Shown here piece after piece: positions 2,157 to 27,816 of a DNA stretch of 27,816 nucleotides; positions within the stretch are counted from its first letter, which is position 1; every line of letters starts with the position of its first letter. Made by a program: the position numbers and the translations under genes. Below the pieces are notes generated by a model. That model saw nothing but the letters and a program-made list of their open reading frames with translations. It had not been told where the DNA came from and made no database searches. The stretch comes from a virus, in IMG/VR virus record IMGVR_UViG_3300032006_000068, positions 1 to 27,816 of that record; one strand, written 5' to 3'.

Positions 2157-3059
2157 ATGGATGACATGACTCCCCTTTTTCCGTTAGAAGCCGAACCAAC
2201 GCCATCGAAAACCAAAATTGTCGAGAAAAGCGTTAAGAGCAAAACGGACTATTCCAATAATTGGACCGCCGTAGTAGGTGTCCTGTTAGATGGTGAAAAA
2301 AGGTATAAAAGCAAAGGGCTTCCCACTAAGGAGGAGGCCCAAGCTGCCTTGAGGGAGCTGGTGGCCAAAGTGGAAAGCGGCGAGATGGAGGCTGAACTCC
2401 GAAGCAAACCCAAGCAGACGAAAAGGGACTTTCCGGAAGGCGTTTATTACGATAAGAAAAGGGAAAAGCCTTGGTTAGCGCAATCGCCAATAAAGGATTC
2501 ATATACCGCTAGCGGGCGGCGGCGTTATTCAAGGAGGGAATTTAAGACAAAGGAAGAAGCCGAGCGCGCTGTGAAAGTCGGGGTAGTAAGCTACGAATTA
2601 AACCTACTTAAAGCTGAAGGTAGTTTATTATCGGCTAAGCTGTATGAAAGAGCAGCGCACCAACACTTCGAAAAGTGCCGGCTTTCTTGTAATCACACCA
2701 AAAAGTCGAAAAGCATCTCAAGACTTGGGTTTAAAGAGTGGTTCAAGGTTAGCGCACAGGAAGCCCAGGACTTTTTAGCTGAGTACTTTAATGAAGATAG
2801 GTTGTTGTACAAAAATGGTGAGGAACTGAAGGAATGGACTGGTGATGACAAGACCGAGGTGATTTACGTGATGCGTCCAGAACATAAGCATATTGAGTAT
2901 GGTGATACTTGCAAAATAGGAATTACGAGGGCGCGGCGCCTTAAGGAGCGCATCCTTAAACTTTCCTACGAATCAAATACTGACGTGTTTTATTACTTCG
3001 CCGCTGCTGTTGGTGAGTTGGAGCCAGGCAGTTTTCGAACTCCTGGCATTCACGTATAA
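2157..3059 (+). CDS. AP2-like DNA-binding protein with truncated GIY-YIG (T5orf172-like) domain
   Basis: This 300-residue protein appears modular. Residues 34-66 (NNWTAVVGVLLDGEKRYKSK, then TKEEAQAAL) and 93-145 (EGVYYDKKREKPWLAQ, then RRYSRREFKTKEEAERAV) resemble AP2/Arm-type DNA-binding beta-sheets, which end in a TxEEA helix. From 233 on, VIYVMRP, CKIGITRARRL and ERILKLSYESNTDVFYYF match the start of the T5orf172/MUG113 branch of GIY-YIG nucleases. The protein then stops at 300 without the expected later helix carrying the catalytic glutamate, and the other two frames do not restore it. It may be a homing-endonuclease relic or a DNA-binding protein that reuses the fold. Domain calls rest on motif memory only. 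Confidence 0.75.
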   Translation: MDDMTPLFPLEAEPTPSKTKIVEKSVKSKTDYSNNWTAVVGVLLDGEKRYKSKGLPTKEEAQAALRELVAKVESGEMEAELRSKPKQTKRDFPEGVYYDKKREKPWLAQSPIKDSYTASGRRRYSRREFKTKEEAERAVKVGVVSYELNLLKAEGSLLSAKLYERAAHQHFEKCRLSCNHTKKSKSISRLGFKEWFKVSAQEAQDFLAEYFNEDRLLYKNGEELKEWTGDDKTEVIYVMRPEHKHIEYGDTCKIGITRARRLKERILKLSYESNTDVFYYFAAAVGELEPGSFRTPGIHV

Positions 3060-5268: not shown

Positions 5269-6026
5269 GCCCCATTATCAACGACCTTAGCTACAACCAA
5301 TCTGCAAGCGTTTGGGAGGACTGCATCAATAAAGCCCTCCTAAGCGCTTACGGGTTCGAAACGAGCGACGTTGATGCGTTCGCGTCAATGGACGAAGATG
5401 GTTATATCCTCGGTCGGTCCAGGAGTGCTATTGATGTGTTCGGGGCGTTCCTTTTCTTTGAATGGAAGTCATACGGCGACATGGATTTAAAAACCGGACA
5501 ATCCATATTTCTGTCCAATTTAATGCGCCTCCTGTGGACGCATCCGACAAGCAGGGGTATGGTTGTTTTCCTAAAGATTAGGGACGCCCTAGGGGCTGAT
5601 AACAGGCCCGTGATGGTAACCCGGGAGGCGCCGCGCGATTCTACGGCCGCGATGAATGACGACAGGCCTTATTTGGCGATGCGTTACAAGAAGCAGGAAG
5701 TAGAACGGGTAGGGGTTTTCATACCGCATCGGGGCTTCCACAATAGGTATTTCGCTAGACGTTACTGGTTAAAGCAACCCGGCAAAAACCCACACGATAC
5801 GCTGGTGGATTTTTTGGTCGGCTGGAAAAAATACAACACAACAAATCGAAAGGCCGATAGTGCAAAGGGGCCGCTAGACAACCTTGTTTTCGGTGGTTAT
5901 GACACAACGGCCAGTGGTGAACTCGGTAATTACGAAACCACAGTAGATGAGTTGTTCCGCGTGGGCCACAAGGAAGAGCCAAGGCCTCCCAACATGTTCG
6001 AGCAAAATAATGAAGCTTACAATTAA
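5265..6026 (+). CDS. Putative PD-(D/E)XK nuclease
   Basis: Starts at GTG 5265 inside the upstream stop (GTGA). In the 253-residue product, SAIDVFGAFLFFEWKSYG places Asp57, then Glu66-Trp-Lys68, matching the D...(D/E)xK core of the PD-(D/E)XK superfamily; Glu19 in the first helix could complete the site. Such phage enzymes process DNA ends or Holliday junctions, or degrade host DNA. The rest (residues 90-253) shows a strand-rich middle and an acidic C-terminus without further motifs. Assignment is by motif only. Confidence 0.58.
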   Translation: MSPIINDLSYNQSASVWEDCINKALLSAYGFETSDVDAFASMDEDGYILGRSRSAIDVFGAFLFFEWKSYGDMDLKTGQSIFLSNLMRLLWTHPTSRGMVVFLKIRDALGADNRPVMVTREAPRDSTAAMNDDRPYLAMRYKKQEVERVGVFIPHRGFHNRYFARRYWLKQPGKNPHDTLVDFLVGWKKYNTTNRKADSAKGPLDNLVFGGYDTTASGELGNYETTVDELFRVGHKEEPRPPNMFEQNNEAYN

Positions 6027-6261
6027 AGCCAAGGATAAGAAAACGTTTAGGAGTAGGGTTTTTGACCCGAAAGAAGTGAGGTTCGTTGATTTGCTGAGTA
6101 AACGCCAGGTAGCAGCGCATTTCGGCATTGATTTGAGGGTTGTTGAGCGAGCTATGGAGGCGCGACGTATTCAAACACTATCGGTAGACAATAACGGTCC
6201 GCGTTACGCAGTGTATGAGTCTGCTAGGATTTGGGCTGATTGGTATCAAGCTCAATCGTGA
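6010..6261 (+). CDS. Small helix-turn-helix-like protein, 83 aa
   Basis: Starting at ATG 6010 it overlaps the previous gene by 17 bases and ends the rightward operon. Residues 29-60 (LSKRQVAAHFGIDLRVVERA then MEARRIQTLSVDN) resemble an excisionase- or MerR-type DNA-binding domain (SKRQVAxxFGIxxRxVxxAM). No integrase is present, so an excisionase role is not supported; a transcription regulator or small DNA-binding factor fits better. Its stop lies one base before the parS site. Confidence 0.62.
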   Translation: MKLTIKAKDKKTFRSRVFDPKEVRFVDLLSKRQVAAHFGIDLRVVERAMEARRIQTLSVDNNGPRYAVYESARIWADWYQAQS

Positions 6262-6262
6262 T

Positions 6263-6278
6263 TGTTTCACGTGAAACA
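6263..6278. promoter_or_regulatory. parS: Perfect parS site (ParB-binding centromere)
   Basis: TGTTTCACGTGAAACA is a perfect 16-bp palindrome and equals the consensus chromosomal parS bound by ParB/Spo0J in most bacterial phyla. It is placed in the only convergent gap of the genome, right after the last early gene and before a bidirectional hairpin. No ParA- or ParB-like protein is encoded here, so host ParB is the expected ligand. ParB is a CTP-dependent clamp that loads at parS and spreads. Chance of a given 16-mer in 27.7 kb is about 6.5 in a million on one strand. Confidence 0.85.
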
Positions 6279-6285
6279 TTCTTGT

Positions 6286-6325
6286 GGCTCCGTAGTCAGT
6301 GGGTGAGGACACTGCCTACGGAGCC
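6286..6325. terminator. Bidirectional hairpin between convergent operons
   Basis: GGCTCCGTAG (6286-6295) pairs with CTACGGAGCC (6316-6325), and CAGTG (6297-6301) pairs with CACTG (6310-6314), giving 15 pairs with one T-C mismatch and an 8-base loop. It separates the end of the rightward early operon from the end of the leftward late operon. T runs are poor on both sides, so it may rely on stem strength. Confidence 0.7.
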
Positions 6326-6348
6326 CATTAACTCTCTAGGCCCAAGCG

Positions 6349-6564
6349 TTACGCTTGAGCGCAAATTTTATATATACTTTCCCCACCAGTATCAATCAAA
6401 ATGACGAGCGCTCGGTACATATCGGGTGAACCATGAAGCCAAATATCATGAAGCTTGTCCACTACGTCGCTGAATTCATCGGCCGCCCTGTCTGTCTTGC
6501 GGTCCGGTAATCCAACTTCTATTGTGAGAACCCTGCTGTAGGACTCAAAATCCGGGTTTTTCAT
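6349..6564 (-). CDS. Small hypothetical protein, last gene of late operon
   Basis: The 71-residue frame starts at ATG 6564 overlapping the stop of the metallophosphoesterase gene (ATGA), so the two are coupled. It is acidic and soluble (SRVLTIEVGLPDRKTDRAAD and IWLHGSPDMYRALVILIDTG). I do not recognise it; the coupling suggests a partner or accessory of the phosphoesterase. Confidence 0.65.
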   Translation of the reverse strand: MKNPDFESYSRVLTIEVGLPDRKTDRAADEFSDVVDKLHDIWLHGSPDMYRALVILIDTGGESIYKICAQA

Positions 6565-11294: not shown

Positions 11295-11837
11295 TCACCC
11301 CGTCTCCTGGTAGTGGTCGTGAGCCCACGAACTGTGAGCCGAGCCCTCGATAGGGGACCCGAATTTAGAAAGGAACTCGGCAGCGTAAAAGCGGTTGATT
11401 TCACTAAATCCGTCGCCCGCCTCGCTATTAGAAAAATTGGTAAGACCATGGAGCTCTATGCTATGTCCGACACTCTCAAAAAGCGTATTACCATCAGCAT
11501 CAGTAATAGCACTCCCGCTGCTATCGAGGATGGTTGAAGTGTTCGCACATTTTACAAGCCTCGTCGCACCTGTTACGGCCGCATTAAGAGTATCGCTATC
11601 GGCCCACGCGTCAAGGTTATCATCTGAGGAGTTCAACCACTTTAGAGCCACGATAAAGGGTTCTTTTATTCCGTCGCCTAGGACAAAGCTACTCTTTCCG
11701 CCGGGACCCCTTACAGCCCGCCTCCTGACCTCCTGACGCCGTTGAACGGTGAACCTAGAAGCAGGCAAGGCAGTTGCTGAATCACCCCCGCTGTTTATCA
11801 GGTACCAATACACTTCACTGCTTGTTTCTGCCGGCAT
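11295..11837 (-). CDS. Minor tail protein, 180 aa
   Basis: Located between the large baseplate-type protein and the three fibre-type genes. It contains RRRAVRGPGGKSSFVLGDGI followed by KEPFIVALKW, a glycine-turn rich beta segment, and an acidic C-terminal half (AGDGFSEINRFYAAEFLSKF). I do not recognise a family; the position implies a tail-tip or fibre-connector role. The ATG at 11837 is preceded by AGGAGG three to four bases after the upstream stop. Confidence 0.62.
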   Translation of the reverse strand: MPAETSSEVYWYLINSGGDSATALPASRFTVQRRQEVRRRAVRGPGGKSSFVLGDGIKEPFIVALKWLNSSDDNLDAWADSDTLNAAVTGATRLVKCANTSTILDSSGSAITDADGNTLFESVGHSIELHGLTNFSNSEAGDGFSEINRFYAAEFLSKFGSPIEGSAHSSWAHDHYQETG

Positions 11838-14304: not shown

Positions 14305-17271
14305 TCATGACGCCCGCAAGGCATCTGAGGAAGCGAAGTTTCTATGGGATACAGCAGATAAGAGCGTATCGGCCGCAAGCTGTAATGATTGGGACGCTAT
14401 TAGTAGATTCTGACCGCTTTGGATTTGCACAGTCGATAACACAGGTTGCGATGCAGCCCGGCCTACAGTTTGGGCGGAAAGTATTTGAAACTCCTCAGGG
14501 TTCACCGTAGGGTCCTCTGACCAAGGGGTAACAATTCGCTTTCCTTTTGATGCCCTACGTTTCTCCAGAAGGTCCCTCAATCGACGGCGTCTACCGAAAA
14601 TCCTTCCGAAAAATGCTTTAATCACGTTCCAAATCCCGCCAGCTACCGCGCCAACCGCTGGGTGAATCATGTTTCCAACGTGTTGCAGGACATTCACCAC
14701 GTGCTTTTCGAGCCTACCGGCGGCATGCTTAAAGGCACCGGCTACAAGGTTCCCGCCGTTTGTTATGTCGTTCGCTAAGTTATTCAACAAGCCCATGAAT
14801 TCCACATCTTGGTCTATTTTTATCTTCGCACCAAAGACGTTCAATGTATGCACCGGGCTTTCCCTTGTCCCCTCTTCGTCAGTTTCTGGCTCTCCGAATT
14901 CCTCGTTAAGCGCTTTAAGTGCTTGCGTTGCTTGCTGAACCGTACTACCGAAACCACCCAGAGCCATCGTGTAACCCATTTGGGCTATATTGCTTTGCTC
15001 CAGCGTCAGGGCAAGCGCCTCTCGCTGCCGTTGCTCCTTAAACAAAACTTCTTCTTGCAGCTTAGCAGTAGCAATGTCCACCCGCGTGTTAGCCGCAGCC
15101 TCTTCCGCCTCCGTCATTTTGGAACCCATCGTTTCCCACTGGCGCATTGAGTCTTCGAACGCTATTGCGGCCGCTTTCTGCGCGGTAAGGGCTTCCTCCG
15201 CGAGTTTGGCGATATGCTCGTTGCTTGTCGCTATGCCAACCATGCTCGACGGTGTGGCCGCCCCTAAAATCTGTTTCCGAGCTTCCTTCTGCTCCCCAAT
15301 CGCTATATCCCCGCGCCCTGTCGCGCGCAAAAGTATCGGGGCTCGCGCCAGGTTCGCCAAATGCATAACCGCGTCTGCGGCGTCTTCCCCCAGCTTGGTT
15401 ATCCCAGCAGCATGCTGAGCTTCTTTAAGCTGGCCCGCACGCTCTGCGGCTAGTGCTGCCCTGGCATCCTTGAAATCGGCAACTTCCTCAGCTAAATGGT
15501 CTGCACTCATTGCAAGTTTAACTTCAGCCTTGTCTCTCGCCATTTGTGACGAGCTCCTTCTAGGCGGAAGGCCTCCTACCGCTCCTAGCCCCGTGTTGGC
15601 GCCCCATCCGCCCCTCCGCTGGCTTTCGTACTCCATGCTTAAGCCTGCGCGGGGAGTAGCGGGGTGGCTAAATGGTGAGGCCCACCGGTCCCGAGCAAAA
15701 ACGAAGGGATGCCTCTCCTGGCCCGGAGGCGGGGTTCCTCGGACGAGTGGGCCGCCTCCCTCTTCGCCAGCGCCTTCGTCGATTACGGTGGTCAGCTTTG
15801 CCGTTTCAAGGGCGTTAAGCTCTATGACAGTTATGTTGGTTTTTACTTGTCGCTCTAGGTCATCAAGCGCATTTATTAACTTTTCCGATTCCTCAACTTG
15901 CTTAGCAAACCTGCCTTCTTCCTTAGGGCTAAGGTCGTCCTCATATCTGGCTATGGTGTCCTGCATGTCTTTAACCAGGACACTTCTAATTACGGTTAAT
16001 TGGTCGAGAAGTGCCCGCTGCGACCCGGTGGTCTTGTTCCTCGGGTCAGTGGACGCTTCGTATGCGCGCATTAATTCGTTCCCTAGATTTTGCCTGCTCC
16101 TGGCTAGCTCCATGCTCCCCGTGGCTCGAACATTAGAGCCAAAGGAGAGGGGCCCAAAGTCAATTTTGTTTGAAAGCGCCCGTGCTTCTCGAGCGGGGGC
16201 GTTTTGCGCCGCTTCGATGGCGTTGCGGTGGCTTTTCTCGAAAGCATCCCAGCCCGCCAACCCAAGGAGCTTACCTATTGCGTTGCCTACGTTAGCGAGC
16301 ATGCTAAACAAAGGCTTAGCCCAAGTCAACCAAGGGCTATCTAGTAAATCTTGAAAAGCGGTTTTAATGTCGCCCACCGCGTCAGCAACTAGCGTCACTT
16401 TCTCGATTATTCTGGTAGCAAAATTAATCATGCCGGTTATGGTGCTCTCTAGACTAGCGCCGACCGAAATCTTCATCTGGGTAAACGCTTCGGCGAGCCG
16501 CGTGCTAGCTCCACCGTATCCCTCCATGAGTACCGGAACCGCCTCTATTTCGCCAGCTGACTCAGTCATGGTCATGGTCATAGCTGCGGTTGCTTTCTGG
16601 GCGTTAGTTAACTGGTCTACCGTCACTCCAAGTGCTTTGGCTTTGTCGCGGTAAGCTTTACTTAGGTTCGAAGCGATGCCTATTGAATTCAGCATCTGAG
16701 ACTGTTCTGACATAACGGCCTGAGCGACGTTAGAGAAGCCTGAGGCCACGTCGCGTCCGAACGCAAGGCTAGACGCCCCGGCAGCTGTAAGCAAGCCCTC
16801 TACGGCGTTTATGTCCGCTCCGTACCTAAGCAATTGCGTAGCAGCGTCTTCTACTACGCTTGAATGAACATTAAACTTTTCAGATAATCGTTGTACCAGG
16901 TCTTGACCCGCTTTGAGGCCATGGCCACCCACTTCTAACTCTCTGTTGAAGAGCTTAGTGGCGTTAGTAGCAGCGAAGGAGCTTTTGACCAGGCTATCCA
17001 TGGCTTTTACGCCCTGAGTAACCATAACGGCGGCCATTTTTACTAACTGAATGTTAGCGAGTATCAAGACGTTCTTGAAGCTGGCCAACTTTTGCCCAGC
17101 GCCCGCTAGAGGCGTTTTCATGGCGTTCAGCGAATTGCCCGCTATAACAACATTCCTTGATAGCTCTTTCGTGTTATTCGCTACCTTATTGACGACCTTG
17201 GTCGAGGCGTCCATCTTGCGGTTAAAGTCCTGAGTGAGGGCCTCTAGTTTGACGCTGATTTTTTCTGACAT
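14305..17271 (-). CDS. Tail tape measure protein, 988 aa
   Basis: The longest gene and directly downstream of the tail chaperones, as in almost all siphoviruses. Residues 1-60 are helical (VKLEALTQDFNRKMDASTKV), followed by a minor-tail domain (VVEDAATQLLRYGADINAVE, ASSLAFGRDVASGFSNVAQA) typical of tape measure N-termini, then long Ala-rich helices (DSMRQWETMGSKMTEAEEAA). A glycine/alanine hydrophobic patch near residue 880 (HPAVGAVAGGIWNVIKAFFG) is followed by a basic RIFGRRRRLR. By analogy its length sets the tail at roughly 140-150 nm. Its ATG overlaps the chaperone stop (TAATG). Confidence 0.92.
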   Translation of the reverse strand: MSEKISVKLEALTQDFNRKMDASTKVVNKVANNTKELSRNVVIAGNSLNAMKTPLAGAGQKLASFKNVLILANIQLVKMAAVMVTQGVKAMDSLVKSSFAATNATKLFNRELEVGGHGLKAGQDLVQRLSEKFNVHSSVVEDAATQLLRYGADINAVEGLLTAAGASSLAFGRDVASGFSNVAQAVMSEQSQMLNSIGIASNLSKAYRDKAKALGVTVDQLTNAQKATAAMTMTMTESAGEIEAVPVLMEGYGGASTRLAEAFTQMKISVGASLESTITGMINFATRIIEKVTLVADAVGDIKTAFQDLLDSPWLTWAKPLFSMLANVGNAIGKLLGLAGWDAFEKSHRNAIEAAQNAPAREARALSNKIDFGPLSFGSNVRATGSMELARSRQNLGNELMRAYEASTDPRNKTTGSQRALLDQLTVIRSVLVKDMQDTIARYEDDLSPKEEGRFAKQVEESEKLINALDDLERQVKTNITVIELNALETAKLTTVIDEGAGEEGGGPLVRGTPPPGQERHPFVFARDRWASPFSHPATPRAGLSMEYESQRRGGWGANTGLGAVGGLPPRRSSSQMARDKAEVKLAMSADHLAEEVADFKDARAALAAERAGQLKEAQHAAGITKLGEDAADAVMHLANLARAPILLRATGRGDIAIGEQKEARKQILGAATPSSMVGIATSNEHIAKLAEEALTAQKAAAIAFEDSMRQWETMGSKMTEAEEAAANTRVDIATAKLQEEVLFKEQRQREALALTLEQSNIAQMGYTMALGGFGSTVQQATQALKALNEEFGEPETDEEGTRESPVHTLNVFGAKIKIDQDVEFMGLLNNLANDITNGGNLVAGAFKHAAGRLEKHVVNVLQHVGNMIHPAVGAVAGGIWNVIKAFFGRIFGRRRRLRDLLEKRRASKGKRIVTPWSEDPTVNPEEFQILSAQTVGRAASQPVLSTVQIQSGQNLLIASQSLQLAADTLLSAVSHRNFASSDALRAS

Positions 17272-17573
17272 TAGCTAGACTCCTCTCGTGCCGCAGCGAT
17301 ACCGCGCAATTTGGCGGCCAGAGCACTCGTGCTCTTCGCTTCCTTGGGCTTCTTTTTGTCCTCCAGGAATGGGTATATATCTTTGGCCTGAAGGGTTGTG
17401 CTGCCTCGTTTTGAGTTTACGTTATACAGAGCAGCTATCAAGCTCCCCGAGAAAAAGAAATCCCGCTTATACCGCTCGGTCCAGGCCGTATATATAGCCT
17501 GGAATTCCGACACGTCAGCCAGCCAGAACGAGGCGGGCGATTGTCCAAACTCAGCCACCCACATCCCGAACAT
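17271..17573 (-). CDS. Tail assembly chaperone T part (reached by -1 frameshift)
   Basis: The separate ATG at 17573 gives 100 residues (MFGMWVAEFGQSPASFWLAD onward), but the frame is open upstream without a stop to the slippery heptamer at 17648-17654. It therefore most likely forms the C-terminal part of a G-T fusion of about 220 residues, as in lambda gpGT. The ribosome site before 17573 is weak (GAAGAG very close to ATG), which favours the fusion as the main product. It folds with G to chaperone the tape measure. Confidence 0.82.
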   Translation of the reverse strand: MFGMWVAEFGQSPASFWLADVSEFQAIYTAWTERYKRDFFFSGSLIAALYNVNSKRGSTTLQAKDIYPFLEDKKKPKEAKSTSALAAKLRGIAAAREESS

Positions 17574-26981: not shown

Positions 26982-27193
26982 TAGAGCTTATTGTACCCTA
27001 CAGGCCGCGAGTGTAAGCCCTCTAGTGGGGTGCCATCGTCTGCCTTAATGCTGACACTGAAGTACTCATCATCAATGATGAGACGCTCATCACGCTTAAT
27101 TATTGCTTCAGCTAATTGTGGATGATAATTCAATATAACGTCCTTAAGTAAGACCCTCAGTTGGGCTTGTTGTTTAGTGAGCTTTCTACCCAT
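26981..27193 (-). CDS. Small hypothetical protein in rep operon
   Basis: 70 residues (MGRKLTKQQAQLRVLLKDVI, YHPQLAEAIIKRDERLIIDD, EYFSVSIKADDGTPLEGLHS). ATG 27193 overlaps the rep stop by eight bases and its stop overlaps the nuclease start by one base. It is likely a helix-then-beta small soluble protein. Family unknown; context suggests replication or recombination. Confidence 0.62.
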   Translation of the reverse strand: MGRKLTKQQAQLRVLLKDVILNYHPQLAEAIIKRDERLIIDDEYFSVSIKADDGTPLEGLHSRPVGYNKL

Positions 27194-27816
27194 TGTTCAC
27201 CGCGAGTCGTTGCATCAACTCCCTAGCCCTCTGTTCCAATTCGTTGCGCTGGGTATTTTGCAATGCCTCCTCCGTCCTTTCTTTGAATTCTACGCGTTGC
27301 CCTCTAACTGGCCTCCAATCCGGGTGATTCCGGTTAGCCCTGTCTCCCCCCTCCAGCTCCTGAGACGAACGAGAAGACGGCGAGCGCAACCAACTCACAT
27401 CCAAACCAATCCAGCCATTCTCCAAAGCCTTAGAAAGCAACTCATTAGCTCGCGGGCCGGCCGCAAAAAGCTTAGCCACAAGCCGCTTGCATGATTGTTT
27501 CGTAACCCCTTTACGGAGCTCCCGCCTATGAGAAAGGAAGGAAATCCAGAGCTCCCTAGACACACCTGAAGGTAGGTCAATATCTTCAAATTGTTCTTTG
27601 GGGCTTGTGTTCTTGGGTTTTGCTCTCATGTTCTTCTCATTCTTGGGGCTTTTGCTTTTTGGTTTTGGTTGTGTTTTCTCTAAATTCCCCATATGTTTTT
27701 TATTTAAGCTTTTATTTTCTTTAAGAGTGGCAACTGTGGTTGACACTGATTCGCGTCCCGTGGCAACTGTGGTTGACACCCCCCCTTCTTCCGTGTCGTC
27801 TCCAGTTGCCAGGATG
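27186..27816 (-). CDS. Replication initiator, lambda O-like, C-terminal part (gene begins at 418 in the circle)
   Basis: A GTG at 27779 could start a truncated form, but the frame is open through the contig end. In the circle it joins the winged-helix domain starting at 418. This part contains the iteron-coded STTVAT repeats, a Lys/Asn/Pro-rich linker, then FEDIDLPSGVSRELWISFLS with VTKQSCKRLVAKLFAAGPRA and ALENGWIGLDVSW, the common C-terminal domain of phage O/DnaT-like replication proteins (LWxxFLxHR, T-x-x-x-x-x-L, SIENGWKGI). The end is charged and helical. The variable codon at 27692-27690 is Met here and Ile in the left copy. Confidence 0.85.
   Translation of the reverse strand, partial: ILATGDDTEEGGVSTTVATGRESVSTTVATLKENKSLNKKHMGNLEKTQPKPKSKSPKNEKNMRAKPKNTSPKEQFEDIDLPSGVSRELWISFLSHRRELRKGVTKQSCKRLVAKLFAAGPRANELLSKALENGWIGLDVSWLRSPSSRSSQELEGGDRANRNHPDWRPVRGQRVEFKERTEEALQNTQRNELEQRARELMQRLAVNNG
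27674..27816. repeat. Terminal direct repeat, right copy
   Basis: Copy of bases 1-143 with C at 27690 where the left copy has T at 17. It includes the iterons at 27727-27746, 27760-27779 and 27793-27812. See the left copy for the interpretation as circle closure. Confidence 0.93.

Follow-up and report, generated by a model that had tools for sequence, protein, structure and literature searches.

A candidate host-ParB site identical to the chromosomal parS consensus in a marine tailed phage without visible Par proteins

The window, the whole stretch of 27,816 nt analysed here (IMG/VR record IMGVR_UViG_3300032006_000068), is a ~28-kb marine tailed-phage record whose ends repeat each other over 143 bp with 99.3% identity, and the map is therefore essentially a complete circle. 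The minus strand carries the terminase, capsid, tail and lysis genes together with an O-like replication initiator that spans the record ends, and a short plus-strand operon encodes a C5 methyltransferase, ribbon-helix-helix proteins and proteins without assigned function. When the first 25 kb of the window were compared with catalogued phage DNA, no match was found, and searching bacterial genomes with the terminase revealed neither a prophage nor a host. The two operons meet at the sole convergent gene junction of the window, and the gap between the plus-strand stop at 6261 and the minus-strand stop at 6349 holds a 16-bp palindrome, which is followed by a hairpin and then by the minus-strand gene (Table 1).

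Table 1. Features of the convergent junction and of the replication initiator gene (window coordinates).
Feature	Position	Strand	Remarks
Last gene of the plus operon, 83-aa HTH-like protein	6010..6261	+	weak phrog_7506 match, E 7e-4
parS, candidate host-ParB loading site	6263..6278	.	perfect 16-bp palindrome TGTTTCACGTGAAACA; kept in relative
Hairpin, candidate terminator	6286..6325	.	16-bp arms, 8-nt loop; fold z = -5.5
Last gene of the minus operon, 71-aa protein without assigned function	6349..6564	-	convergent with plus operon
Replication-initiation O-like gene, C-terminal part	27186..27816, continuing into 451-1	-	phrog_678, E 3e-16; PF04492 in 2-451

The palindrome, TGTTTCACGTGAAACA, agrees with the chromosomal-type parS consensus, TGTTNCACGTGAAACA, at 16 of 16 bases and is the only parS match in the window even when three mismatches are allowed; the number of matches expected per window at up to three mismatches is 0.06 by dinucleotide shuffles, and the chance expectation for the exact 16-mer by base count is ~1e-5. 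The same sequence is the optimal parS of B. subtilis (PMC4333373) and the parS consensus of several other phyla (PMC7022226). The initial annotation, which had called a perfect chromosomal parS here and placed it at the single convergent junction of the genome, is borne out in both respects. The neighbouring hairpin was considered as a simple intrinsic terminator and rejected; it probably is not one, because a T-run is absent, and the sole terminator-like call in the junction region is a weak one at 6346-6362. The product of the plus-strand gene adjoining parS weakly resembles recombination directionality factors, yet no integrase was found.

Searching IMG/VR with the terminase, portal and capsid yielded one distinct relative covering the site, IMGVR_UViG_3300030329_005118 (26,963 bp), whose larger stretches of matching DNA are 79-96% identical to the window. 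A check of the same gap in related phages, as the initial annotation had proposed, thus has one informative genome, and in it the 16-mer is identical and lies in the same gap with the same layout; the stem pairing of the hairpin is also kept there, GTAG/CTAC being changed to GCAG/CTGC (L126, about 1524-1563). Two more contigs with near-identical DNA span ~1/2 to 2/3 of the genome and the parS gap is outside both. Another relative, found by its capsid (93%), is too short a contig to reach the site. In a more remote terminase relative (30%) the best match has three mismatches and was not counted as a site. Since the divergence near the site is 7.3%, at which an unselected 16-mer would survive with a probability of ~0.3, the conservation appears supportive but by itself weak.

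No ParB_N (PF02195), HTH_ParB (PF17762), ParA-type AAA_31 (PF13614) or tyrosine integrase (PF00589) domain was detected at E<=10 in the window or in the relative, and no serine integrase was seen in the scanned subset of window proteins. The description of the phage as one with no visible ParA or ParB therefore holds, and the accompanying claim that it has no integrase agrees with the search for the tyrosine type. Lysogeny or plasmid-maintenance genes are likewise not visible in the window phage.

The abundance of the site in phage collections was compared with that of control palindromes. The exact 16-mer is present in at least 120 stretches of IMG/VR, whereas two palindromes of the same composition, TGTTTGACGTCAAACA and TTGTTCACGTGAACAA, the latter retaining the CACGTG core, gave 1 and 5 matches, respectively. 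In INPHARED (50,697 records) parS was found in 315 records with an 18-mer probe that picks up 16-base matches as well, as against 0 and 0 records for two composition-matched palindromes; these counts, like those from IMG/VR, contain redundancy and perhaps some host DNA, and do not represent independent events. The core-swapped CAGCTG form gave 5 records, all from one Erwinia jumbo-phage lineage and within the RNA polymerase gene, and the natural parS variant TGTTCCACGTGGAACA gave 108. Counting the 16-mer in large phage sets thus returned a strong excess over composition-matched palindromes in both collections and, because the core swap gives 5 records and the natural variant 108, the phage excess appears to follow the specificity of ParB. 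The initial view that a lone host-type parS is rare among phages, or rarely described, does not survive these numbers and the precedent of phi29 discussed below. The INPHARED carriers include phages of Listeria, Microbacterium, Arthrobacter, Gordonia, Bacillus, Lactobacillus, Enterococcus and Ruegeria as well as microviruses and inoviruses. Enteric phages, such as those of Escherichia and Salmonella, abundant in INPHARED as a whole, were absent from the ten commonest names and from 60 evenly spaced rows of the parS matches; to our knowledge, the chromosomes of Escherichia, Salmonella and other enterics have no ParABS.

Most of the carriers examined resemble the window phage in their ParB content. 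ParB_N was absent (E<=0.001) from 46 of the 50 long parS-bearing IMG/VR records among the matches listed, an upper bound given that such records may be fragments, and from 13 of 14 catalogued phages examined, two of which, phi29 and Pseudomonas phage Lana, carry variant sites and not the exact 16-mer. Among the phages free of ParB_N are phi29, B103, SpV4, which is a microvirus of 4.4 kb, and an inovirus of 6.2 kb with six perfect sites. At the 120 IMG/VR loci among the matches listed, 76 of 146 sites lie inside called ORFs with a minimum length of 70 aa, as against 128 expected; 42 sites fall in tandem gaps (10.8 expected), 9 in divergent gaps (2.9) and 12 in convergent ones (2.0). Sites are thus ~3-6x enriched between genes and under-represented within them. 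The site of Lana is also in a convergent gap.

Several of these genomes have arrangements of their own. SpV4 (L147, M17988) has one perfect parS at 693-708 and the inovirus bajarodino virus 3 (L146, PQ006097) has six, at 704, 740, 3041, 3583, 4380 and 5921; capture of ParB in such 4-6 kb ssDNA phages may act on the double-stranded replicative form. A phi29-like contig (L071) carries a perfect parS near both record ends (132-147 and 11579-11594). Two further loci, L017 (2657-3444) and L044 (10535-11462), each contain five perfect copies within ~0.8-0.9 kb, located upstream of the terL frame apart from one L044 copy that is inside it. Perfect parS sites no more than ~165 bp ahead of terL are found in marine phages of one TerL family (L027, L042, L101, L119, L029, L019, L066, L093, L097, L120 and others).

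This marine clade, which is unrelated to the window phage, was sampled by terminase with closer relatives taken at 75% identity or above. Of 37 closer non-seed relatives, 9 had the site at most ~165 bp ahead of terL, 8 of them in exact form and 1 with a single mismatch, and none of 37 more distant relatives had it there; some bias remains in this comparison, as the seeds were picked for parS. By these counts, parS is dispensable in the clade and is gained and lost there. Even close relatives differ in whether they have the site, degenerate copies are almost absent, and this perfect-or-missing pattern suggests selection that depends on circumstances, for example on the host.

The closest known parallel is the virulent phage phi29, which has four parS sites with one mismatch each, TGTTTCACGTGGAACA, and for which PMC9437464, citing Meijer et al. 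2005, states that entrapment of the genome in spores depends on host Spo0J (ParB). Like phi29, the window phage is a tailed phage in which a host-type parS is present and a phage ParB is absent, and one of the four phi29 sites (17243-17258) is found in the same order at a convergent junction, with the gene 16 stop (17242) immediately ahead of it and two annotated terminators (17262-17301) behind it. The two differ in that phi29, a linear and protein-primed podovirus, infects a spore former, has four one-mismatch sites and is subject to Spo0A control, whereas the map of the window phage is circular, its initiator is O-like, it has a single perfect site and a marine host, and no spore context is visible. 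A second parallel is SGI1, in which parS mimics use the ParABS of IncC plasmids and the element gains stability (PMC10954446). There, too, a mobile element with parS copies exploits the ParB of another replicon for its own stability, but the mimicked parS is of plasmid type and the helper is destabilised, whereas the site of the window phage is of chromosomal type. Phage-plasmids (P1, N15, the extrachromosomal prophages of mycobacteriophages, cyanophage Mic1) likewise carry sites of the parS type on their genomes. Unlike the window phage, for which neither an own ParB nor an own ParA was found (E<=10), they encode ParA/ParB with a cognate parS. Our search of the open literature, with most subscription journals outside its scope, returned phi29 as the only phage described with a host-type parS on its own; phi29 is the known first example, and what is new is the breadth, which is wider than we found described.

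ParB proteins generally load at parS with CTP, slide and contact ParA and SMC. A site for host ParB in a phage without Par proteins appears well supported by the excess over controls, its loss upon core swap, the intergenic bias and the conserved site of the relative, and we regard it as highly probable that host ParB loads at the candidate site of the window phage. The 16-mer would recruit the chromosomal ParB of the host, ParB-CTP clamps would load there and slide along the circular phage genome, and ParA and/or SMC would then link this unintegrated genome to the host origin/nucleoid segregation machinery. The genome could in this way stay positioned and co-segregate with the chromosome during slow, paused or carrier-state infection, a step for which phi29 in sporulating cells, acting through Spo0J, offers a parallel. 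That the benefit consists of tethering or segregation is the view towards which we lean somewhat, and the whole reading, in which a functional parS recruits the host chromosomal ParB and ties the unintegrated genome to the segregation machinery, seems to us reasonably probable.

The strongest competing explanation is a role in the lytic cycle, where host ParB might bring the phage DNA close to the host origin or pole at which replication proteins concentrate, or might load SMC in order to compact and disentangle replicating phage DNA. Sites of this kind do occur in lytic or tiny ssDNA phages, such as SpV4 and those resembling phi29, and the O-like initiator implies that the window phage is probably dependent on the host replisome. 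Against tethering or segregation it counts that no lysogeny or plasmid-maintenance genes are visible, as long-term segregation would be pointless if the phage were strictly lytic. Sequence does not separate such a lytic role from tethering for inheritance, and we consider the lytic role rather unlikely, albeit a serious contender; control of transcription and a decoy function are weaker. Spreading of ParB from parS could silence nearby genes or insulate the converging operons, as might be expected from a site directly between the last plus-strand gene and a strong hairpin at the only convergent junction, a layout shared by one phi29 site and, as to the convergent gap, by Lana. However, the hairpin could by itself end transcription, and tandem and divergent gaps are enriched besides convergent ones at the 120 listed IMG/VR loci. 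On account of this enrichment in all gap types, parS was rejected as a general marker of operon ends, an option raised in the initial annotation, and regulation of transcription by ParB spreading is judged improbable for the window phage.

A decoy, in which replicated phage copies titrate ParB off the host chromosome, would fit best those phages that have 5-6 perfect copies (L017, L044 and bajarodino virus 3). The window phage has one copy per genome and host chromosomes usually have several parS sites, which makes this explanation very improbable. The use of host ParB as initially envisaged is supported in part: the host-type site in a Par-less phage is upheld by the evidence given above, the decoy fares poorly and the marking of operon ends does not hold in general. 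An equally slight probability is given to the proposal that the palindrome arose by chance or serves another palindrome-binding protein and is not parS. There is a single site and a single distinct relative, but the chance expectation is far below one match even at three mismatches, and the phage excess tracks ParB specificity, as the core swap and the natural variant indicate.

Beyond the window phage, it seems common for phages to reach the DNA-segregation machinery of their hosts by way of a lone host-type centromere, a route that looks under-noticed. Capture of host ParB by a lone parS may be a general strategy across unrelated tailed phages, microviruses and inoviruses of ParABS hosts, by which genomes without lysogeny or plasmid genes make use of chromosome segregation to persist in growing cells and of which the window phage would be one case, a proposition on which we are evenly divided. 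How phages that lack known lysogeny genes maintain themselves in growing or starving populations is in many cases poorly understood, and if the proposition is true, a 16-bp site would offer a simple mechanism behind both carrier states and the location of phage DNA in the cell. In addition, parS would then serve as a host clue, as carriers should infect bacteria with ParABS.

Two further features of the window are recorded here. Two exact 20-bp direct repeats, GTGGCAACTGTGGTTGACAC, lie at 54-73 and 87-106 (the same DNA as 27727-27746 and 27760-27779) inside the O-like initiator gene and are accompanied by an inverted partial copy; they resemble the iterons of lambda within gene O, and this region is possibly the replication origin. 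The protein encoded at 2157-3059 has Arm-DNA-bind_4, AP2-like and T5orf172 matches, and its gene is probably homing-endonuclease-like.
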